Notes under the pieces: model-generated
The model's database searches: none
The model's input: the letters and a program-made list of their open reading frames with translations, nothing else
What the model was told of the DNA's origin: nothing
Assembly (NCBI RefSeq): GCF_031312595.1
Contig: NZ_CP133592.1
Span: forward strand, 1,488,001 to 1,552,000
Length of the DNA stretch: 64,000 nt
Direction of reading: 5' to 3'
Origin: Methanolobus sediminis
GTDB taxonomy: Archaea; Halobacteriota; Methanosarcinia; Methanosarcinales; Methanosarcinaceae
Made by a program: the position numbers and the translations under genes
Part shown: positions 3,844-59,333 of the stretch, in pieces
Layout of the letters: each line of letters opens with the position of its first letter
Position numbering within the stretch: the first letter of the stretch is position 1

Positions 3844-4812
3844 TCAGATATTGATGTTGTGCTTCTTAGTCCTTTCATCAATAAGTTCAGCAAGCTCCTC
3901 AGTGCCGGAGAGTTTATCCAGTTCGCTTTTCTCTATCAGTACAGTATTCTCCACCGTCTCAGATTTGATCTGTCCGTTGATGATAAAGACTGATTTTGTC
4001 ATTGTAACACAGGAAATGCTGCTCATCAGGTCTGCACGTTTTATCATTGCGCTGCTGTAAGTGCTTACTCCCGTAAGCAGTGTGTCAGAAGTATCCTTTG
4101 ATATTGCTTTAAATGGTGCCTGGCTTGTAGACATTACCTGATATCCCAGAGCATTGAGCATACCAAGGATACCATCATCAGGTTGAGCCTCTGCGGGTTT
4201 TTCCTGTGGCTTTTCCAGACTAACACGTTTCTCAAAACACTGGAGTATGTCTATGGATTTCGCAAGAGCCACATCCAGCAACTCCTCAAGCTGAAGGACA
4301 ATATCAATTGAAGCATCCATGCCGCCTTCTTCATATTTACTTATGGTTCTTCTTGATACTCCAAGTTCGGTGGCAAGTGCACCCAATGACATTGCGGTTC
4401 TCTTACGTGCTTCTTTTAGCACATCCCCATCAATAGATACATAGAGTCCACCGGGGGCTGCGGATACAAGAGGCGGTACATCCTCAACAAAATAGTCATA
4501 AAGGGTCTGGACATTCACAGCAGGGATGTCGTAGCGCATGTATACCACGCTGTCTTCCAGCATCTGATCCCTAGTCTTGGCACCAATGAGTACTGCAGTC
4601 CCTCCAAGATAACGTGCAAGGCTTTTCATTTCCCTTGCAGTTTCCTCATTCAGGCCATCTATATTATACAATACCTTGTAAAAGATGAGTACATCCCCTT
4701 TTCGGGCTGCAAGGTCAAAGCTCCGTGGACGAATATTACATCGCTTTGAGACCATAAAGCCAGCTTGTTGTAATACATCAATGATCTGATGTATGAGGAT
4801 GTCTTTTGTCAT
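3844..4812 (-). CDS. Archaeal HTH-type transcriptional regulator with nuclease-fold-like N-terminal domain
   Basis: About 322 residues from ATG 4812. A further in-frame ATG exists at 4881, but the A+T box at 4898-4912 would place the transcription start near 4880, so the downstream start fits better. N-terminal domain (residues 1-125, FDLAARKG then strand FYKVLYN) resembles a restriction-endonuclease-like fold without an obvious acidic-Lys active site. Residues about 135-195 form an Xre/Cro-type HTH (LGVSRRTISKYEEGG). The C-terminal half has a second small domain (PFKAISKD...TYSSAMIKRA). This matches a family annotated in archaea only as putative HTH regulatory protein. It is transcribed away from the sensor kinase at 5063. 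Target genes are unknown. Confidence 0.85.
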   Translation of the reverse strand: MTKDILIHQIIDVLQQAGFMVSKRCNIRPRSFDLAARKGDVLIFYKVLYNIDGLNEETAREMKSLARYLGGTAVLIGAKTRDQMLEDSVVYMRYDIPAVNVQTLYDYFVEDVPPLVSAAPGGLYVSIDGDVLKEARKRTAMSLGALATELGVSRRTISKYEEGGMDASIDIVLQLEELLDVALAKSIDILQCFEKRVSLEKPQEKPAEAQPDDGILGMLNALGYQVMSTSQAPFKAISKDTSDTLLTGVSTYSSAMIKRADLMSSISCVTMTKSVFIINGQIKSETVENTVLIEKSELDKLSGTEELAELIDERTKKHNINI

Positions 4813-4947
4813 AGGCAAATAGCCATTGTTTGCACATCTATATAAAGATATCCCATGGGGTGCCTTTAAATACAGACTCATAATCTCTTAGAGATAATAA
4901 TTTATTATATTATATGGGCAAATTATTTATCTAATATGCAGAAATAA

Positions 4948-4963
4948 TGTTGTATATACAACA
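4948..4963. promoter_or_regulatory. 16-bp perfect palindrome over a TATA-like core, upstream of the sensor kinase
   Basis: TGTTGTATATACAACA is a perfect palindrome with a TATATA centre. If the centre serves as TATA box, transcription would start near 4980, about 80 nt before the kinase ATG at 5063. A palindrome covering the TATA box is a typical place for a repressor site; the regulator is not identified. Confidence 0.45.
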
Positions 4964-5062
4964 ACGCCTCATTTTTTATGACAGTTGGTACATTGCTTGT
5001 TGAGTGAAAAATATGGAACCAGAGATAGAAGAAATGCAAATTTCATTTGAGGGGTATTTCTG

Positions 5063-6958
5063 ATGTCTGCACTTGAGAGAGCTTTTCTCAGTACCAAACA
5101 TATTATTGTATTTTCATTCTTCTTTGGAATTCTATCCTGGATCATTGATGGGTTATTGGATACTACTTTTTTCTCGGAAAGAACATTCGTAGATAGTCTG
5201 ATTTTCGGTCTTTCAACTCATGAAATATATATGCGTATTTCAATGTTTTTCATTATTTTGATATTTGGAATGATCGTTTCACTCTTTGTTCACCGAATGC
5301 AGGAAATGAATAATGTAATTGAGAATGAAAAGATAAAATCCCATAAGATAATGGATATTCTACCTATGATCATCCTTTTTCTGGATACTGAAGGGAATGT
5401 TTCATGTGTCAACAAGAAAATCCTCGAACTTACCGGATACGAAGAAGTCCGGATATCAGGCAATAAATGGCTAGACCTTCTTTTTCCAGAGGAATACAGG
5501 TCAGAAGTACTTCCATACTGGGACAAGTTTGTATCAGGCGAGATCGATTCTGTAACAGGTCTTGAATTTCCTATTATATGTGCAGACGGTTCCAGAAAAC
5601 ATGTACTCTGGAATGCTGTTTCTTTTATTGATGATAACGGGAGATTTGCCGGTATCACAATATCCGGTGAAGATATTACTGATAGAAAAATTGCTGAAAA
5701 AGCACTTCTAATGGATGAATCCCGGCTTGAGGCCCTGATTGAGCTAAGTCAATATTCAGATTCTACAATAGAAGAAATCCTTGACTTTTCACTTGAAAAA
5801 GCAGTAAACCTTACAGAAAGCAGTGTAGGTTATGTTGGCTTTGTGAATGAAGCTGAAGAAACTTTCTCCATGTATTCATGGTCTGAAATAACTGAAGCTG
5901 GTTATGAGATAAAAACGGTAAATATGGACTGCAATATAGACGTAGATAATCTGTGGGGAATAATCGTAAAGCAGCGAAAACCCCTAATCTCAAACAATTA
6001 TCCTGATGATTCTCCTATCAAAAAAGGTTCTCCTGCAGGACATGTGAATATCCGTAATTATCTATGCATACCAATATCAGATTCCGGCAATATTGTCATG
6101 ATAGCAAGTGTAGGTAATAAGAATGGAAACTATGACAGTTCTGATATAAGGCAAATAACACTCCTCATGGAAGGTACCTGGAAGATTATACAAAGAAGGG
6201 AAAATGAGGAACAGATAAAATCATATGCAAGGGAAGTTGCGGAATACAATAAGGAACTGGAATCCCTGGATCGCATGAAAGATGAGTTCATGGCAAACAT
6301 AACACATGAATTGAAAACCCCACTGATTCCAATTAAAGGATACAGTGAACTTCTTTTCGAAGGGCATCTGGGTTCGCTGGATGAAGATCAGAAGAAAGGC
6401 ATAGGTGTGATCCTTCAAAATGCTGACAGGTTGCATAAACTGATTGATTCCCTGTTATATATGCAAAACATCCATTCCGGAAATATACAGTATCATCTTG
6501 ATTCAGTAGATATTGTCAACGTGCTGGACAATGTGATCGATAAGGTGCTAACATTTAAAGACAAGGGTCCTGAACTGAAAACAGAATATTCATCTCCTTT
6601 GCCATTTATTTGCGGTAATAGTACCTATCTGAAGCAGGTCTTTTCACACATACTTGAAAATGCCTTAAAATTTACTCCACCTGATGGCTTGATAACAGTT
6701 GTAGCTTCTCATGAGGATAAAAATATTCGAATTATTGTAAGGGATACGGGTATAGGAATATCCAAGGATGAAATGCCTCATATTTTCAAACGATTCTATC
6801 AGGTAGATGGCTCCCTGACACGTCGTTACGGTGGAAATGGTCTTGGTCTGTACCTTTGTAAAAGCGTTGTGGAGGCTCACGGAGGTTCCATATATGCAGT
6901 TAGTGAAGTAGGTAAAGGAACAGAGATACATGTTCTTTTGCCAATCATAGAAGAATGA
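5063..6958 (+). CDS. Membrane sensor histidine kinase (2 TM, PAS, GAF, HisKA, HATPase)
   Basis: A 631-residue sensor kinase. Two hydrophobic segments at about residues 13-34 and 57-77 leave no large external domain, so sensing is probably cytoplasmic through a PAS domain (about 88-205, GNVSCVNKK...GITISGEDITDRK) and a GAF domain (about 220-385). HisKA follows, with phosphorylatable His415 in ITHELKTPL, then HATPase with the N-box Asn533 (ENALKF), DTGIG, and the GGNGLGL box. No receiver domain is attached and no response regulator gene lies nearby, as is common for archaeal kinases. The start has a good ribosome site (GAGGGG, 5049-5054). The signal is unknown. Confidence 0.93.
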   Translation: MSALERAFLSTKHIIVFSFFFGILSWIIDGLLDTTFFSERTFVDSLIFGLSTHEIYMRISMFFIILIFGMIVSLFVHRMQEMNNVIENEKIKSHKIMDILPMIILFLDTEGNVSCVNKKILELTGYEEVRISGNKWLDLLFPEEYRSEVLPYWDKFVSGEIDSVTGLEFPIICADGSRKHVLWNAVSFIDDNGRFAGITISGEDITDRKIAEKALLMDESRLEALIELSQYSDSTIEEILDFSLEKAVNLTESSVGYVGFVNEAEETFSMYSWSEITEAGYEIKTVNMDCNIDVDNLWGIIVKQRKPLISNNYPDDSPIKKGSPAGHVNIRNYLCIPISDSGNIVMIASVGNKNGNYDSSDIRQITLLMEGTWKIIQRRENEEQIKSYAREVAEYNKELESLDRMKDEFMANITHELKTPLIPIKGYSELLFEGHLGSLDEDQKKGIGVILQNADRLHKLIDSLLYMQNIHSGNIQYHLDSVDIVNVLDNVIDKVLTFKDKGPELKTEYSSPLPFICGNSTYLKQVFSHILENALKFTPPDGLITVVASHEDKNIRIIVRDTGIGISKDEMPHIFKRFYQVDGSLTRRYGGNGLGLYLCKSVVEAHGGSIYAVSEVGKGTEIHVLLPIIEE

Positions 6959-48349: not shown

Positions 48350-48507
48350 TAATGTCCTGTGCAACCAGATCCTCCGTGTAACCGGATTTAGTCGCAGGGC
48401 AGATCATATGTATTCACATATGCTGGTAGCAGCGCTCTCAATCTTGATCTGCTGCGTATCATAGGTTTCATTTATTGTTAATTCTACAATATCCTGGAGA
48501 ATATTCC
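48350..48507 (+). ncRNA. Structured 5' leader of cbiZ mRNA
   Basis: A TATA-like ATATTTAAAA (48321-48330) predicts a start near 48350. The leader folds into: TGTCCTG/CAGGGCA (48353-48359 with 48395-48401) enclosing AGATCC/GGATTT (48367-48372 with 48384-48389); a perfect 7-bp hairpin CATATGT/ACATATG with loop ATTC (48405-48422); and GCAGC/GCTGC (48429-48433 with 48451-48455) around TCAATCTTGA. No B12-box (GCCACTG) is present, so it is not a classical cobalamin riboswitch. Confidence 0.45.
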
Positions 48508-49707
48508 ATGACTTCCAGAACCACAAACGGGGCAGATATGGATGCCGATCCTTCAAAGGCTGAAAGCGGTACAGAAAGGGAAAGTGTCCTTCTTTTTGAG
48601 ACCACGGGCAAGGAGAAAGTTTACCGATTCAGCGATTCTATTCTTGTTAGCTTGCCACAAGGACACAAAACACTTACAACCTCCTGGCTAAACGGAGGAT
48701 ATCGTGAAGATGTCAGGGCAGTTTTTAATCACATGATCCCAAAAGGCAAACATGCACCAAAGGAACTGGAAGGTGGTAGTGTTCCTGCTTATCTTCGTAT
48801 TATTGCGGAAAGACTTGGAGTCGATCCGGATACTTCTTCAGGGCTTCTGACAGCTGCCAACATGGACAACGTTGCTATTGTAACAAAGTCTTTCCGCGGG
48901 GTCGAAGTGACTGCTGTCATGACTGCCGGCATTGAAGTAAATGGGGGACGTGTCGGTGACCCCGCATCGTATTATCAGGAGGACGGTTCTCACCAGTTCA
49001 TCCAGGGTACTATAAATATGATCCTTATCATTGGAGCTGATCTTCCGGAATATGCCATGGCAAGAGCAATTATAACCGCAAGTGAGGCAAAAGCTGCTGC
49101 TTTACAGCAACTTATGGCTCCAAGCCGCTATTCGAAAGGAATTGCTACTGGTTCAGGAACTGATATGGTCGCAGTTGTCTGTGATGGGGCAAGTTCTTTA
49201 AAATTGACTGATGCGGGGCAGCATTCCAAACTGGGAGAACTTATCGGTAAAGCCGTTATTGAGTGCACTCACAAGGCACTTGAGCTGCAATCTGATCTTA
49301 CTGTTCTTTCACAGCGGGATATGCTTGTGAGGCTTGAGCGTTTTGAAATATCCGAAGCAGATTACTGGAAGGTTGCCTCAGGACTGAATGGTGCAAACCG
49401 AAAAGCAGCTTTCCTGAAAGTTCTAAGAGAGATGTCCAAGAACCCCGTATTGGTAGGGGCAACCGGGACGATATTACATATTGTTGATGAGATCTCATGG
49501 GGACTTATTCCTGAAACAGCCGGAAGGAGAGTTGCTGTTTCTCTGATGAAGACTCTTCCAGGAATTCTTGGAATAGATGATTCCGTACCATTTGATGAAC
49601 TTGCGGATGAAAAAGACTGTATCATAGACAACTGGGTACGCGTTACCGCCTGGATGGCAAAAAACTGCGAATCTAAAGGGTTGTGTTCTCAGGTGCCGCA
49701 GGAGTAG
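48508..49707 (+). CDS. cbiZ: Adenosylcobinamide amidohydrolase CbiZ
   Basis: About 399 residues from ATG 48508, with GGAGA upstream. CbiZ removes the aminopropanol arm from (adenosyl)cobinamide to give cobyric acid, the archaeal way to salvage corrinoids. The CbiZ core is visible in LSTSWLNGG-like LTTSWLNGGYREDV (near residue 62), TAANMDNVAI (near 122), MTAGIEVNGGRVGDP (near 150) and ATGSGTDMVAVVC (near 222). A further 100 residues after the core (about 290-399) resemble the extra alpha-helical domain found in archaeal CbiZ fusions. The next gene starts 11 nt later. Methylotrophic methanogens depend on corrinoid methyltransferases, so salvage is valuable. Confidence 0.92.
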   Translation: MTSRTTNGADMDADPSKAESGTERESVLLFETTGKEKVYRFSDSILVSLPQGHKTLTTSWLNGGYREDVRAVFNHMIPKGKHAPKELEGGSVPAYLRIIAERLGVDPDTSSGLLTAANMDNVAIVTKSFRGVEVTAVMTAGIEVNGGRVGDPASYYQEDGSHQFIQGTINMILIIGADLPEYAMARAIITASEAKAAALQQLMAPSRYSKGIATGSGTDMVAVVCDGASSLKLTDAGQHSKLGELIGKAVIECTHKALELQSDLTVLSQRDMLVRLERFEISEADYWKVASGLNGANRKAAFLKVLREMSKNPVLVGATGTILHIVDEISWGLIPETAGRRVAVSLMKTLPGILGIDDSVPFDELADEKDCIIDNWVRVTAWMAKNCESKGLCSQVPQE

Positions 49708-49718
49708 GTGGTTGAGTT

Positions 49719-50702
49719 ATGAAAGAGACGGTAAACTTCTCATTGTATGAGCCGGATATGAAACTGTTTGATTCGGACTGGGGAAAGATTCGAAATTTCC
49801 TTGTACGACATGATCTTGATGGTCTGGAACTTTTTGTTGACTCTTCTCCTCTACCTGATGATGTACCAAAGGATCTGGTTGTAGGGGTTCATCTGCCTTA
49901 CTGGATGGGAAGGCACAGGGCATGGGTCGATCCGTCTGTATTCACACAGGATATGGAGGAATTTGAAAGGATATATGTTTTCGGCGGTGGAAGCCGGGGT
50001 GAGGTTATCGGGACTTTCAGTAAGGCTCTTGAGAACGCTCATACTCTGGAGGCAGAGTATGCGGTTTTTCATGTATCCTATGCAGAAATGGAACAGGTAT
50101 ATACACGCTGCTTTGATTGTACGGACTACGATGTACTTGAAACAACAGCAGATTTTTTGAATGAAGCTGTTTCTGTTTATCCGAATGGTGAGCCTCCGGT
50201 GCGTCTGTTCTTTGAGAATCTCTGGTGGCCGGGACTTACATTCCTTGATCCTATGAATGTTGAATACTTTGCTTCACTACTTGATTTTGATAACTGGGCT
50301 TTTGTTCTTGATACGGGTCACCTGATGAATGCCACTATGAAGTGTGAGGATGAGAACTGCTCTATCAATGTGGTACTTGATGTGCTTTCCAGGCATCCGG
50401 AAGACTTCATTAAAAGAATTGAAGGCATGCATTTCCATTGCAGCCTGTCAGGAGAGTTCATGCGAAACTCGATGGACCTGGAAATTCCGGAAGGTTTTGG
50501 AGATTTGTCTTTTCATGAGCGTCTGATGTCCGTAATGGGAATACTGGACCAGATGGATCAACATATGCCTTTTTCAAGCGAAAATTGTTCACAGATAGTT
50601 GATATGGTGTCACCTGATTACTTGACGCATGAGTTTGTTGCAACTGACTTGCGCTCTCTGGATGAGAAACTGTATATACAGAGAGGAGCATTACGCAAAT
50701 AA
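49719..50702 (+). CDS. TIM-barrel protein of the sugar-isomerase/AP-endonuclease-2 type, linked to cbiZ
   Basis: A 327-residue protein with features of xylose-isomerase-like TIM barrels: HDLDGLELFVD near residue 30, VVGVHLPYWMG near 55, YAVFHVSYAEME near 117, RLFFENLWWP near 165, FVLDTGHLMNA near 203 and IEGMHFHCSLSGEF near 235. His, Glu and Asp residues at strand ends are consistent with metal binding. It lies 11 nt after cbiZ, surely the same operon, which suggests a part in corrinoid salvage or lower-ligand chemistry (inference). No exact function recognised. Confidence 0.8.
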   Translation: MKETVNFSLYEPDMKLFDSDWGKIRNFLVRHDLDGLELFVDSSPLPDDVPKDLVVGVHLPYWMGRHRAWVDPSVFTQDMEEFERIYVFGGGSRGEVIGTFSKALENAHTLEAEYAVFHVSYAEMEQVYTRCFDCTDYDVLETTADFLNEAVSVYPNGEPPVRLFFENLWWPGLTFLDPMNVEYFASLLDFDNWAFVLDTGHLMNATMKCEDENCSINVVLDVLSRHPEDFIKRIEGMHFHCSLSGEFMRNSMDLEIPEGFGDLSFHERLMSVMGILDQMDQHMPFSSENCSQIVDMVSPDYLTHEFVATDLRSLDEKLYIQRGALRK

Positions 50703-50836: not shown

Positions 50837-51391
50837 ATGAGCACTATCGATAACAATGACTCCGAGAATCCAGAGCACACTGACCGTCTGAAACTGTTTA
50901 GCGCTCTTGGAAGTGAAACCCGGCTCAGGATGCTTCAAAGGCTGACTGAGGGTGAAATGCACATATCAGAACTTGCAAGGGAACTCAGTATCTCTGTGCC
51001 GGTTGCTGCAAAACACGCAAACATACTGGAGGACGCTGAGCTTATACAGCGTAAGGTTTATGGAAAGACCCATGTCCTGCAGCTTAACAATAAGAATATT
51101 TTCCATGCACTTGACATCTTCGCACCTTCCAGAACAGTTGAAGTTAAAAAAGGTGCCACATTGCTGGAAGCACTTAAGAAGGCAGCAGTTGTCGAAGTGA
51201 AAGATGTTCACGGACAGGATAATATTGTTTCCACCAATGGCGAGGAAGGTTTCTTTGTCTATGAAGTGGATGGTGTTTTCTCCGATAAGAATGTCAATGA
51301 ATTCGTATTTGACAAGAATTCCACTGTTATGTGGAAGAAACTGGAACCTATCAGCATTTTGAAAGTTAAAGTAAATGTTCAGGATGAATAG
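50837..51391 (+). CDS. ArsR-type HTH regulator with a transcobalamin-like (DUF4430) C-terminal domain
   Basis: A 184-residue protein. Residues about 15-90 are an ArsR winged helix (LFSALGSETRLRMLQRLTEGEMHISELARELS; recognition helix VPVAAKHANILEDAEL). Residues about 105-184 match the DUF4430 pattern: KGATLLEALKKA, GFFVYEVDGV, VNEFVFDKNSTVMWK. DUF4430 corresponds to the C-terminal beta-domain of transcobalamin/intrinsic factor, which contacts cobalamin. Adjacent to the cbiZ operon, it could be a corrinoid-sensing repressor (inference). TATA-like ACTATATATGG (50803-50813) makes it nearly leaderless. Two hairpins end the gene. Confidence 0.82.
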   Translation: MSTIDNNDSENPEHTDRLKLFSALGSETRLRMLQRLTEGEMHISELARELSISVPVAAKHANILEDAELIQRKVYGKTHVLQLNNKNIFHALDIFAPSRTVEVKKGATLLEALKKAAVVEVKDVHGQDNIVSTNGEEGFFVYEVDGVFSDKNVNEFVFDKNSTVMWKKLEPISILKVKVNVQDE

Positions 51392-51437
51392 TCATCCATG
51401 AAGAACGTTAGATCGTTCTTCTCTCTCGTCTTTTTTC
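51382..51437 (+). terminator. Double hairpin terminator of the ArsR-DUF4430 gene
   Basis: First hairpin GGATGA/TCATCC (51382-51387 with 51392-51397) holds the TAG stop in its loop. Second hairpin GAAGAACG/CGTTCTTC (51400-51407 with 51414-51421) is followed by TCTCTCGTCTTTTTTCTC. Confidence 0.75.
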
Positions 51438-51512: not shown

Positions 51513-52655
51513 ATGACCCGCAGAAGTCCTGCTAATGAGCACCATATGACGCTTATGGAAAGGATGAGAGTATTATCCGAAGGCACGAAGTATGATAGTT
51601 GCAACCAGAGCGCTGTCTGTCATGCTTTCGGACCCGATGGTCGCTGCATACAGCTCTACAAAACGCTGATGACTAATACCTGCTCCGGTGAGTGCACGTA
51701 TTGTCCGAACAGGTGCGGCAGGGATTCTGTGAAGGCATCGTTAAGTCCGGAAGAGATCACAAAGATCACGTGGTCATTCTATCGCAGAAATGCAATTGAA
51801 GGTTTGTTCCTGTCATCCGGGGTAATGGGTGATGCTGAAAGGACCGCTGAGAAGCAACTGGAGGTAGCAAGGCTTCTGAGAGGACAGGGATTTACAGGCT
51901 ATATACACATTCGTGTGATGCCAGGAACACCTAAGTATTTGCTGGAGGAGATAGCTGAATGTGCAAATAAGTTCGGAGTAAATGCAGAGACCACAAGTAC
52001 GATAAATTACTCGGAGATCTGCCCTAATTTTGATTACAAGAACGATGTGCTTCAGCGGTTGCAATGGACCCGTGATCTCATTAACAAAAAAAGAAAAGAA
52101 GAAGGTTTTAGAGGACGCATTATCGGTGCCAACGACACTCAATTCGTGGTGGGTGCAGTTCAGGAGTCAGACAGGGAAATTATCGGGACCGTTGAGAACT
52201 TTATGAACAGGTATGAGTTAAGAAGACCATATTTCATGAGCTTTGATCCGGTTCCCTTCACTCCTCTTGAAAATAATGATCCTTCTCCAATGTGGAGAGA
52301 GATAAGGCTATACCAGACATCTTATCTGCTGAAGGATTATGGCATGACTGCATATGACCTGGATTCTGTTCTTGATGACAATGGTTTCCTTCTTGATATG
52401 GATCCAAAGATGCTTCTTGCATCCTGTAACCCTGATACGTTCCCTATAAATGTGAATACTGCAAGCAGGGAAGACCTGCTCAAAGTGCCGGGAATCGGGC
52501 CGGTGGGTGCAAACAGGATCATTCAGTCAAGGCCAATAAGTTCTGAAAAGGAACTTTCACGTATGGGTGTGGTTATGAGCCGCGCAAGGCCTTTTATTGA
52601 GCTCAATGGAAAAAGACAGACGAACCTTTTCTCTTTTACAGGTGTGGGAGCATGA
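51513..52655 (+). CDS. Radical SAM-HhH protein, putative DNA modification/repair (TIGR03916-like)
   Basis: A 380-residue protein. The radical SAM cluster motif is CSGECTYCPNRC (near residue 60, CX3CX2C), preceded by the family opening MERMRVLSEGTKYDSC and an extra Cys/His group (CNQSAVCHAF). The C-terminal 75 residues contain a helix-hairpin-helix DNA-binding module (INVNTASREDLLKVPGIGPVGANRII). The family is annotated as a putative DNA repair radical SAM protein that in bacteria occurs beside a UDG-linked DUF4130 protein, the neighbour here. ATG 51513 would be leaderless after a TATA box at 51482-51490; ATG 51546 is an alternative. Its stop overlaps the next start (ATGA). Confidence 0.88.
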   Translation: MTRRSPANEHHMTLMERMRVLSEGTKYDSCNQSAVCHAFGPDGRCIQLYKTLMTNTCSGECTYCPNRCGRDSVKASLSPEEITKITWSFYRRNAIEGLFLSSGVMGDAERTAEKQLEVARLLRGQGFTGYIHIRVMPGTPKYLLEEIAECANKFGVNAETTSTINYSEICPNFDYKNDVLQRLQWTRDLINKKRKEEGFRGRIIGANDTQFVVGAVQESDREIIGTVENFMNRYELRRPYFMSFDPVPFTPLENNDPSPMWREIRLYQTSYLLKDYGMTAYDLDSVLDDNGFLLDMDPKMLLASCNPDTFPINVNTASREDLLKVPGIGPVGANRIIQSRPISSEKELSRMGVVMSRARPFIELNGKRQTNLFSFTGVGA

Positions 52656-53497
52656 TAGTAGCATTCAGGGAAAATGTGGAAGGTGTTCTGCTTGCATGTG
52701 CAGAACTTATGGAAAATAAAGATTGTGAACTCATCAGTGCGAAGGACAGGGAATCACTGAAACAGAAAATGGAGTTTGCAGGTATAACTGATGTAAAAAT
52801 GCTGGGATTCAGGGCTACAGTTGATACTTCAAAGTTGGTACGCCACATTTTCGGCTCACAAAGACCAAGGATGTTCCAGCGTGATCCTGATGTTGAAGGT
52901 TACATATCGCTGGTTCTGAGGCATCATAGTTCAAGTCCAATTGAGCTGGTTCAGTTTCTGGATTCATGTGAAGGAAATGCCGAATTGCTATATTCCGGCA
53001 AGACAAGAACCGGAAAGAAATATTATAATTACATGCGGGACGTGAGCCGTTCATATCATCGTCTGTGCATGTTTGCACGACCATATTCTGTAAATGGTGT
53101 GCTTTCTGTAAAAGTGGATTCTCCTCATCATATAGGGGATATGTTCTGTCGCTGGCTTGCCAGAAAGAATCCTGATCTTCCGGTTTCAGTTATACAGGAA
53201 GATGTTGCATGGATAGGAAATGGGAGCCATGTGGGATTAGAACATTATATCTGTGTTCCTTCTTCTCTTGCCGGAAGTCTGGAATTCTCATCAGCAACAG
53301 ATGAGATAGATGACCTGTGGGATATGTATTATGATTCACAGGCAATCCCCAAGAGGAGAAACAAGGCTCATGCAAAACAATTACAACCAAAAGCATCAGC
53401 TTCAATGAGCAAAATGTCTGAAAGGGACAGGTATAAAGTTGAAAGGGGAATCGCAAATTGTACTCTTGACAATTTTGCATCCGGGTCGGAGGTATGA
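52652..53497 (+). CDS. DUF4130-type probable DNA metabolism protein (TIGR03915-like)
   Basis: A 281-residue protein of the family that accompanies the radical SAM repair protein in many genomes. Recognisable segments: SKLVRHIFGSQRPRMFQRDPD (residue about 67-80), KKYYNYMRDVSRSYHRLCMFAR (near 130), HHIGDMFCRWLARKNPDLPV (near 155) and DLWDMYYDSQAIPKRRNKAHAKQLQP (near 230). In bacteria the same family is often fused to uracil-DNA glycosylase; here the glycosylase is absent. Overlaps by 4 nt with the genes on both sides, so translation of all three is coupled. Activity unknown. Confidence 0.87.
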   Translation: MIVAFRENVEGVLLACAELMENKDCELISAKDRESLKQKMEFAGITDVKMLGFRATVDTSKLVRHIFGSQRPRMFQRDPDVEGYISLVLRHHSSSPIELVQFLDSCEGNAELLYSGKTRTGKKYYNYMRDVSRSYHRLCMFARPYSVNGVLSVKVDSPHHIGDMFCRWLARKNPDLPVSVIQEDVAWIGNGSHVGLEHYICVPSSLAGSLEFSSATDEIDDLWDMYYDSQAIPKRRNKAHAKQLQPKASASMSKMSERDRYKVERGIANCTLDNFASGSEV

Positions 53498-55617
53498 TTC
53501 TAATGCTGGCAGAAGTAAGGACATTACAGGACATTCCCGGTATAGGGGATAAGATGTCAAAACGTTTCGTGGAACATTTTGGTAGCGAGGTTCAGGCACT
53601 CGATGCGATACTGGCTGGAGATATTGCCAGCATTTCGGAAGTTGAAGGAATAGGACAACGTTATGCCATATCATTGATACAGGATGTCGCATCCAGGGTA
53701 GAAGGTGTAACAGTAGATGATTTTCTTAGGACAAGGGAGGCAATGGATGTCTATGAGAAATTGCTTGACCTTGTACGTGAATTTGCTCATACACGTTATT
53801 CCAGGGAAAAGTTACATGTGTTCTTCCCTTACCCTTCCGCAAAATCAGAAAAGATCATGCAGGTGAGGGACTCTGTTTCATATTATATGCATACAGCCAG
53901 CCTGCTGGAAGGCGATGATAACGTTGCAGATCTTCTGTCAACTGTCTCCCAGCTTAACTTCAGGCACCAATGTCCCAAAATACGGGATCGTGTGATCATC
54001 ACATCAGACCAGGAATGTTATGAGTCTGCAAGAAAGCGTTTTTCAGGTATAGTTGACGTTCATTTTGCAAAGTCTCTTTCAGAGTTAATAGATATTTCCA
54101 GAGGTTTTTCCCAGGTGATCGCAGTAGGTGATAAATTCCTCGCGTTTGATTTTCCCGAGGATATAGAACCTGAATTTGTATCTGATCTCGATGACTTGGA
54201 TGATTATAAGATCATACCGGAAAAAGAGATATTCCTTTTTTCCCGTAATCTCAGGTCCCTCGAGTCCTCTGTTAATTTAGCGAGGTTGCTGCGGTCAAAA
54301 GGAGTGAGTTTTTTTGAGAAAATGGATGATGATGCTATTGAAATGTTGTCATCAACTCTTGCTCTCATAGATGAGGATGGTGACATTGTTCATGGAATGG
54401 ATGCTGAACTTGACAGGATATCCGATGCAATTTCCAGTCTCAACTCAGTTGTTACTGAAACAGTCAGCTCTGTAAATAAGGAACTGAACTCATCCCTTGA
54501 GAATAGTCAGATGACATTGAGTGGTCAGGATATGCTCAAGGTCATGAACGGTTCCATGGAACTGAAAGAGATACTGGGCAAGAAGCTGCATAAGAATTAT
54601 AGTTCAGTTGTAAAGAATGCTGTTGAAAGGATATGCAATGAACTTCACCTGGAGAAAAAAGAACGATTACTTGTGGATTCTCTTTTCCCGGAGGAAATAA
54701 TGCATCCAATAGAGGCTGATGTTGAAAGCCTTAATAACCTCAGACAGCACCTTGACAAAAAGGCACAGAAAAGGAAGTTCAACCATAAACGCGAAGTTTC
54801 CCGTGTATTGTCTGCTTACAGGGAACTTTCCAGGGAAATGGTAAAGTCAGTCCTTGATTTCGATGTAGGTTTTGCTATTGGACTCTTTTCAAGAACATAC
54901 GGTCTTTCAATGCCCGCTATAATAGATGGTGCAGGTATCGGGTTTAAGGGTGGAAGGAATCTTTTCCTTCTTTCAAGGCATGGAGATGTAATTCCGGTGG
55001 ATTATTCTATAGGTGGAAATTCCTTTGCACCGGTAAATGATGATAGCCGTGTTGTACTTTTAAGCGGAGTAAATTCAGGAGGAAAGACCTCCCTGCTGGA
55101 ATTGCTTGCACAAAGCATAATTCTTTCACATATGGGTTTCCCGGTTCCTGCAGAAAAGATGGAAATCTCTCTTACAGAGTCTATGTACTACTTTGCCAAA
55201 TCAAAAGGTACACTGGATGCAGGTGCTTTTGAAACAACACTTACTGAGTTCTCAGTGGTGGCAGATGAATCTGCTAAGTTTGTTCTGGCTGATGAACTTG
55301 AGTCGATCACCGAACCCGGTGCATCAGCAAAAATAATGGCTGGGATACTTGAGGTTCTAATGGAAAATGACAGTACAATGTCGATATTCGTATCACATCT
55401 GTCCGAGCAGATAATGGAAAATACCGTATGCAACATCCGGGTTGATGGAATTGAAGCCAGTGGTCTGGATTCAGAATTGAATCTTGTAGTTGACAGGACT
55501 CCACGGTATAATTATGTTGCAAAAAGCACTCCTGAATTGATAGTAGAGAGACTTTCAAAGAAAACCGGTGGTAAAGAACAGGAGTTTTACGAAAAATTGA
55601 GGACTAAATTCCAATAA
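53494..55617 (+). CDS. HhH-MutS-type ATPase (archaeal MutS-like, no mismatch-recognition domain)
   Basis: A 707-residue protein. It begins with tandem helix-hairpin-helix motifs (LQDIPGIGDKMSKRF, SEVEGIGQRYAI; residues 8-60). A central helical/clamp region (about 80-480, with a coiled-coil stretch at 290-440) leads to the MutS ATPase: Walker A LLSGVNSGGKTSLL (near 525), Walker B FVLADELESITEPGA (near 590), FVSHLSEQI (near 635). The N-terminal mismatch-binding domain with its Phe-X-Glu is lacking, as is the Smr domain of MutS2. Last of the coupled trio with the radical SAM and DUF4130 genes. An inverted repeat (55607-55626) holds its stop codon. Confidence 0.87.
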   Translation: MILMLAEVRTLQDIPGIGDKMSKRFVEHFGSEVQALDAILAGDIASISEVEGIGQRYAISLIQDVASRVEGVTVDDFLRTREAMDVYEKLLDLVREFAHTRYSREKLHVFFPYPSAKSEKIMQVRDSVSYYMHTASLLEGDDNVADLLSTVSQLNFRHQCPKIRDRVIITSDQECYESARKRFSGIVDVHFAKSLSELIDISRGFSQVIAVGDKFLAFDFPEDIEPEFVSDLDDLDDYKIIPEKEIFLFSRNLRSLESSVNLARLLRSKGVSFFEKMDDDAIEMLSSTLALIDEDGDIVHGMDAELDRISDAISSLNSVVTETVSSVNKELNSSLENSQMTLSGQDMLKVMNGSMELKEILGKKLHKNYSSVVKNAVERICNELHLEKKERLLVDSLFPEEIMHPIEADVESLNNLRQHLDKKAQKRKFNHKREVSRVLSAYRELSREMVKSVLDFDVGFAIGLFSRTYGLSMPAIIDGAGIGFKGGRNLFLLSRHGDVIPVDYSIGGNSFAPVNDDSRVVLLSGVNSGGKTSLLELLAQSIILSHMGFPVPAEKMEISLTESMYYFAKSKGTLDAGAFETTLTEFSVVADESAKFVLADELESITEPGASAKIMAGILEVLMENDSTMSIFVSHLSEQIMENTVCNIRVDGIEASGLDSELNLVVDRTPRYNYVAKSTPELIVERLSKKTGGKEQEFYEKLRTKFQ

Positions 55618-58139: not shown

Positions 58140-59333
58140 ATGCGAAACATCAAAGTTGAACACCTGATTGAAACACCGGTGGAAAAACAGCAGATCGAAC
58201 TTGTAGAGAGGAAGGGAGTAGGTCACCCTGACAGTATCTCAGACGGTCTGGCAGAGGCAATGAGCCGTGCACTGTGTAAGGAATATATCGAAAAATGTGG
58301 TGTGGTCCTTCACCACAATACCGATGAGACTCAGATCGTGGCAGGAAGGTCAAACCCTCAGTTTGGAGGCGGAGAGGTCATCCAGCCAATTTATACTCTG
58401 CTTGTAGGAAGGGCAACCAAAGAATTCAACGGTGTAGAGATTCCAGCAGAGGCTGTTGCCCTGAGGGCAGCCAAGGAGTATCTCAGAAATACTATTGTTG
58501 ACATTGACCTTGAAGGAGACATAATTCTTGACTGTAAGCTTGGTACAGGTTCATCTGACCTGAGAGATGTTTTCCAGAGAGACAGGGTTCCTGTTGCAAA
58601 CGATACTTCCTTTGGTGTAGGGCATGCTCCCTTCTCAGAACTTGAGCAGATCGTTTACGATTCAGAGAGAATGCTGATAACAGATCTTAAGAAGAAGATT
58701 CCTGGAATTGGTACAGATATCAAGGTCATGGGTCTGAGGGACAACAATGATATTCAGCTTACTATCTGCTGTGGAATGGTAGGCAAGTACGTCGATGATA
58801 TGGACCACTACCTGAACATCAAGGAAGAGATGGTGGATTACGTTACTGACCTTGCTCTTAAGCGCACAGACCGCACAGTAAAGGCATTTGTCAATGCAGC
58901 AGATAATGTAAAGTGTAATTCAGTGTTCCTTACAGTTACCGGTACTTCTGCAGAAATGGGTGATGACGGTTCAGTAGGACGTGGAAACCGCTGTAACGGA
59001 CTTATCACTCCTAACAGGCCAATGAGTATGGAAGCAACCAGTGGTAAGAACCCAATTAACCACATTGGTAAGATATACAACCTGCTGTCAACCCAGATGG
59101 CAAAGGATATCGTAAAGGCAGTTCCTGATGTTGATGATGTTTACATTAAGCTGCTTTCCCAGATTGGCCAGCCAATAGACCAGCCATTTGTAGCAAGCGC
59201 ACAGATCATCCCTGCCGACGGTGCAAACTTCAACTCTATTAAGTCAGAAGTTGAGGTCATTATGGATGAGTGGCTCGCTGATGTCACCAAGATCACAAAG
59301 ATGGTCATCAACGGAGAACTTGACACTTTCTAA
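58140..59333 (+). CDS. mat: S-adenosylmethionine synthetase, archaeal type
   Basis: A 397-residue archaeal MAT, unlike bacterial MetK in sequence but of the same reaction: methionine plus ATP to AdoMet. Visible: [23 protein letters not shown] near residue 25, [12 protein letters not shown] near 58, and [23 protein letters not shown] near 275 with the active-site glycines. High expression is likely, given radical SAM and methyltransferase demand. A G+C-rich hairpin with T-run ends the gene. Confidence 0.96.

Follow-up and report, generated by a model that had tools for sequence, protein, structure and literature searches.

We found that a radical SAM gene and an overlapping DUF4130 gene of the methane-producing archaeon Methanolobus sediminis (NZ_CP133592.1), which lie in a stretch of 64,000 nucleotides analysed here as a whole (the window), probably encode a PCNA-tethered pair for radical SAM DNA repair or modification, as judged from their sequences. 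The conserved architecture of the pair, its family assignments, and the enrichment of sliding-clamp motifs of the type proper to each domain of life are all observed, and the explanation that we favour, with reasonable confidence, is an archaeal version of a two-protein DNA repair/modification system docked on PCNA, with the MutS5 gene that follows being mainly separate. The preliminary description had proposed one DNA repair/modification machine made of all three proteins; that proposal is retained and strengthened by predicted clamp-binding tails for the pair, and is not supported for MutS5 as a component.

The locus and the protein families of the pair

The features of the locus are as follows.

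51513 to 52655, + strand: radical SAM-HhH protein of TIGR03916 type, 380 aa (Radical_SAM, HHH and TIGR03916 matches)
51600 to 51704, + strand: cysteines C30, C36, C45 and radical SAM motif C57-x3-C61-x2-C64, invariant in 23 aligned relatives
52449 to 52526, + strand: residues 313-338 of the radical SAM protein, forming its HhH motif (PF00633, E 3.5e-7)
52617 to 52637, + strand: PIP box QTNLFSF at residues 369-375, through which the radical SAM tail is predicted to bind PCNA (motif conservation)
C-terminal tail peptide of the radical SAM protein in the window: GKRQTNLFSFTGVGA
52652 to 52655, + strand: 4-nt ATGA overlap of the radical SAM and DUF4130 genes (ORF coordinates)
52652 to 53497, + strand: 281-aa DUF4130 protein, the radical SAM partner (PF13566; matched by profile to a TIGR03915 protein from bacteria)
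52982 to 53392, + strand: DUF4130 core, residues 111-247, with R143, W223, R235, N237 and P246 conserved in bacteria and archaea
53465 to 53476, + strand: half-PIP LDNF at the DUF4130 C-terminus, residues 272-275 ([LI]xx[FY] conservation in archaeal members)
53494 to 53497, + strand: 4-nt ATGA overlap of the DUF4130 and MutS5 genes (ORF coordinates; spacing variable among relatives)
53494 to 55617, + strand: MutS5-type ATPase, 707 aa, co-directional neighbour (HHH_5 and MutS_V, without mismatch domain)
53518 to 53682, + strand: tandem HhH of MutS5, residues 9-63 (PF14520, HHH_5)
55066 to 55089, + strand: Walker A of MutS5, GVNSGGKT, residues 525-532 (sequence)

The three ORFs and their ATGA junctions have the coordinates first given for them, and Pfam and NCBIfam profile matches agree with the family labels originally assigned (radical SAM-HhH, DUF4130, HhH-MutS ATPase). 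Upstream of the trio lies an ArsR-type regulator (50837-51391), directly preceded by a cobamide-remodelling pair of a CbiZ-like adenosylcobinamide amidohydrolase and a CbiR-like TIM-barrel protein (48475-50702). Between the ArsR gene and the trio, a hairpin followed by a T-run was recognised by eye at 51400-51436, which the terminator scanner did not list, and the scan for sigma-70 promoters and terminators returned hits no commoner than in shuffles. Downstream we recognised hisB, hisA and hisG by eye, and, a few genes 3' of MutS5, an archaeal S-adenosylmethionine synthetase (58140-59333; Pfam) that is syntenic with MutS5 across Methanosarcinaceae. This synthetase makes the radical SAM cosubstrate, yet the intervening his genes favour plain synteny.

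The radical SAM protein matches TIGR03916 at 289 bits (E 5.9e-86), with no other NCBIfam family close, over profile positions 31-382, HhH included. Since the curated cut-off is 343.5 bits, the protein is a relative of TIGR03916 and not an equivalog by the NCBI rule; the CxxxCxxC motif, the C-terminal HhH and a DUF4130 gene directly 3' are all present, and in the tree the archaeal proteins are the sister group of the bacterial TIGR03916 proteins. Cysteines C30, C36 and C45 may form a second cluster site. The HhH domain, first taken for a peculiarity of this radical SAM protein, belongs to the TIGR03916 family, and the bacterial Paracoccus protein also has one. The closest solved folds for the structure model are HydE, biotin synthase and PFL-activase, which fix the enzyme class and not the substrate.

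The DUF4130 protein scores 35.1 bits against PF13566, above the gathering cut-off of 27, whereas its TIGR03915 match (25.5 bits) covers the C-terminal part only and falls short of the equivalog cut-off of 112.25 bits. In two libraries, the best folds for its model are mostly DHH-type phosphoesterases (RecJ, NrnA, PggH, viral DHH proteins), at TM scores of about 0.2-0.4. No conserved DHH metal-site pattern was seen in the DUF4130 alignments, which makes a scaffold or DNA-holding subunit seem more likely than a phosphoesterase. In Proteobacteria, the DUF4130 domain is found beside the same radical SAM gene but joined in one protein to a domain of the UDG superfamily; these fusions are annotated UdgX. 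UdgX itself excises uracil and then attaches covalently to the abasic site that results (PMC10359453). The window DUF4130 protein carries no UDG domain, and a UDG linked to the trio was rejected, as the only one in the genome sits about 0.6 Mb away. The absent glycosylase had been regarded as distinctive of this locus; many bacterial partners, too, have no linked glycosylase, as in Pusillibacter, Spirosoma and one Acinetobacter record. Two archaeal DUF4130 genes look damaged by sequencing error or gene decay, being apparently split into two frames in Methanohalophilus profundi (L150 5995-6854) and shortened in genome G002 (L106 8503-9024).

In many archaea the radical SAM protein occurs by itself, and a combined profile found no hidden DUF4130 near these standalone genes at E<10; DUF4130 is thus not universally required. 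In four Methanocella-like genomes, the radical SAM gene is no more than about 0.6-3.5 kb from the gene for PolB, a protein that itself ends in a textbook PIP box; in one other archaeal lineage, a radical SAM gene lacking DUF4130 has a divergent PolB gene as its neighbour (loci L118, L119, L121, L123 and L099 for the five cases). These neighbourhoods support the mechanism proposed below. A mobile or defence origin was rejected: PADLOC gave no match for radical SAM or DUF4130 and only generic ATPase hits for MutS5, and plasmid copies are mostly on non-mobilizable replicons. No bacterial radical SAM relative was confirmed in viral contigs. One record labelled Acinetobacter phage (L163, CAKLQH020000003.1) has glyS, glyQ and aidB-like genes flanking the pair and looks like bacterial chromosome.

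MutS5 and its linkage to the pair

The third protein combines HhH with a MutS ATPase domain (MutS_V at residues 522-640; NCBIfam matches MutS2-like), and Pfam and NCBIfam profiles found neither a MutS mismatch nor a connector domain, which is the composition of MutS5. Its closest solved relatives are the MutS2 and MutS ATPase domains. It resembles the archaeal MutS5 proteins of Haloferax (MutS5a/b) and Pyrococcus in this composition, but differs from them in standing next to a radical SAM-DUF4130 pair, an adjacency seen only in Methanosarcinaceae. Its C-terminus was rejected as a PIP box, the pattern being absent from the window protein; two distant relatives fit it, which we take as chance. 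Nothing was found of MutS5 in viral contigs.

Across 197 genomes of the phylum, DUF4130 is present in 24, while TIGR03916-like and MutS5-like hits were obtained in 98 and 136, the latter two counts taking in weak partial matches. By coordinates, radical SAM, DUF4130 and MutS5 genes are adjacent in this order in all sampled Methanosarcinaceae genomes with DUF4130 (19/19, five genera), the named relatives including Methanolobus, Methanococcoides, Methanomethylovorans, Methanohalophilus and Methanosalsum, so that the adjacency is not confined to this genome, a concern raised at the outset. Outside the family, all five sampled genomes with the pair lack an adjacent MutS5, which lies about 12 kb off in one and far off or on another contig in the rest. 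Conversely, seven Methanosarcinaceae genomes, like many other archaea, possess MutS5 but not the pair, and genome G022 keeps ArsR, MutS5, hisB, hisA and hisG in order with exactly the pair absent. As a synteny control, the ArsR gene on the 5' side and hisB, hisA, hisG and SAM synthetase on the 3' side proved about as syntenic as the trio itself. In one genome of genus g8 (L110 around 4358-5461), hisB is kept by MutS5 while hisA and hisG are absent, a local block break.

It is unlikely that all three proteins form one machine in which the radical SAM enzyme works on branched or damaged DNA that MutS5 recognises or clamps. The constant adjacency within Methanosarcinaceae and the 4-nt overlaps in the window speak for such a machine, as does the Holliday-junction binding reported for archaeal (Pyrococcus) MutS5 (Ohshita 2017, as cited in PMC11276520), but each part occurs without the other, G022 lacks precisely the pair, and the linkage of MutS5 is no better than that of the unrelated his genes. 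Spacing also counts against the machine: the radical SAM/DUF4130 overlap of 1-13 nt is kept in nearly every relative checked, whereas the DUF4130-to-MutS5 distance ranges from -23 to +44 nt and is not conserved. Together with the equally syntenic flanks, this identifies the radical SAM-DUF4130 pair as the unit, and the adjacency of MutS5 reads as shared transcription plus block synteny. MutS5 is probably a separable neighbour, co-transcribed with the pair in Methanosarcinaceae and working mainly alone.

Sliding-clamp motifs on the C-terminal tails

The alignment of the archaeal radical SAM proteins revealed, at the extreme C-terminus, a Q and an L that hardly vary, with an aromatic residue after them. 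The archaeal PIP-box consensus is QxxLxxFx (PMC7776575), and the bacterial clamp motif is QL[S/D]LF or QxxLF (PMC12309361). In the window protein, QTNLFSF fits QxxLxxF and lies in a tail predicted to be accessible, the last ten residues of the AF2 model having a pLDDT of about 47 after a well-predicted HhH domain. The genome contains a PCNA gene, and the tails of its PolB (QSSLFDF) and Fen1 homologue (QSTLDKWF) are alike, so QTNLFSF is a form that the organism uses.

We judged these short motifs by their conservation, collecting 71 archaeal and 73 bacterial radical SAM tails, the latter from Bacillota, Pseudomonadota, Bacteroidota, Fusobacteriota and Gemmatimonadota. We scored Q-x-x-[LIM]-x-x-[FWY], the PIP pattern, in the last 25 residues and the beta-clamp pattern in the last 60, with expected counts taken from shuffled tails and figures also given after clustering at 70%. 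We found the PIP pattern in 57/71 archaeal tails against 1.1 expected (17/25 clusters against 0.5). Of the bacterial tails, 66/73 carry a beta-clamp motif of QL[SD]LF type, against 3.2 expected (44/50 clusters against 2.2). The reverse combinations were rare, with the beta-clamp motif in 0/71 archaeal and the PIP pattern in 2/73 bacterial tails, and most unmatched bacterial tails still read QLSFI, QLSLI, QLSWDF, QLSFDF or EPMSLF. The full PIP motif is absent from 14/71 archaeal tails; in several archaeal subclades (L085-L087, L092, L230-L232, L236, L237) the protein stops right after QxxL, for example IQTKLFP or VQKRLF, and the aromatic end of the PIP box is lost. Other ORFs of the same loci carry the motifs at the few-percent level, with the beta pattern in 1/107 bacterial ORFs and the PIP pattern in 16/591 archaeal ones, a count that includes several DNA polymerase B and duplicate radical SAM entries; DNA polymerase B is a true PIP protein.

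In a tree for which most of the tails had been trimmed off, a single branch separates bacteria from archaea. Several independent switches of the clamp motif were therefore rejected, and the difference in motif type amounts to one event, kept over a deep divergence. Among open-licence papers, we found no account of clamp binding by radical SAM, TIGR03916, DUF4130, TIGR03915 or UdgX proteins.

The DUF4130 tail, disordered in the structure model, ends in a comparable motif. All archaeal DUF4130 tails carry a terminal [LI]xx[FY] (43/43, or 20/20 clusters, against 8.0 and 4.4 expected), whereas in bacterial standalone DUF4130 tails it occurs at chance (9/56 against 9.1 expected). Being half a PIP box without the Gln, this tail is weaker evidence than that of the radical SAM protein. 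The end peptides of both proteins, which are predicted to hook onto the clamp, suggest a repair process coupled to replication.

That the clamp-tethered radical SAM enzyme acts on protein or RNA, for example by modifying a replisome component, is very unlikely in our estimate: tethering to a clamp does not by itself dictate the substrate, the enzyme occurs without DUF4130 in many archaea, and none of its closest solved folds is a DNA enzyme, but the HhH motif and the UDG fusion of its partner point to DNA. Least likely of all is an ordinary enzyme pair with no replication link, whose C-terminal motifs either close the HhH domain structurally or arose by chance, a reading that would suit the archaeal subclades without a full PIP box but is opposed by a motif type that differs between the domains as the two clamps require, by the longer bacterial tails with a variable motif position (hence no fixed structural end), by the variable residues between Q, L and F, and by motif frequencies that neither shuffles nor other ORFs reproduce.

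Proposed mechanism and relation to known systems

In the PCNA-docked two-protein system that we favour, the radical SAM protein would dock on PCNA via its C-terminal PIP box, and its HhH motif would contact DNA. The 5'-deoxyadenosyl radical might then alter a base or sugar in the DNA, either close to the replication fork or where PCNA marks a site of repair, and DUF4130 would most likely serve as the DNA- or lesion-holding subunit, touching PCNA through its LxxF tail. Spore photoproduct lyase SplB is an established radical SAM enzyme that acts on DNA, and action on DNA is assumed for the window protein; the analogy is functional only. The window protein has no Pfam or NCBIfam match to SplB, which is also absent among the fold matches listed, and differs from it in having an HhH domain and a clamp tail.

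The nearest known system is the bacterial TIGR03916/TIGR03915 (DUF4130) pair, annotated as a 'putative DNA modification/repair radical SAM protein' and its partner, in which a DUF4130 gene likewise overlaps or adjoins the radical SAM-HhH gene on its 3' side and the radical SAM protein likewise ends in a C-terminal clamp motif. In comparison, the archaeal radical SAM protein scores below the TIGR03916 cut-off and has a PIP box in place of the beta-clamp motif, while its DUF4130 partner is divergent, bears the LxxF tail and has no UDG fusion, with MutS5 3' of the pair in Methanosarcinaceae. An annotation of TIGR03916/DUF4130 type is also among the entries of a table that lists ancestral DNA-repair genes inferred by reconstruction (PMC8307549).

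Proteins of the TIGR03916 and DUF4130 families carry the 'putative DNA modification/repair' annotation in many bacteria, and the clamp tail, opposite in motif type between bacteria and archaea, is a concrete clue to where the enzyme works. Overall, it is quite possible, although we hold this more tentatively than the reading of the pair itself, that the TIGR03916-type enzyme is a dedicated client of the replicative clamp in both bacteria and archaea, with a tail matched to the local clamp, and that it would represent an ancient, undescribed pathway of replication-coupled radical repair.
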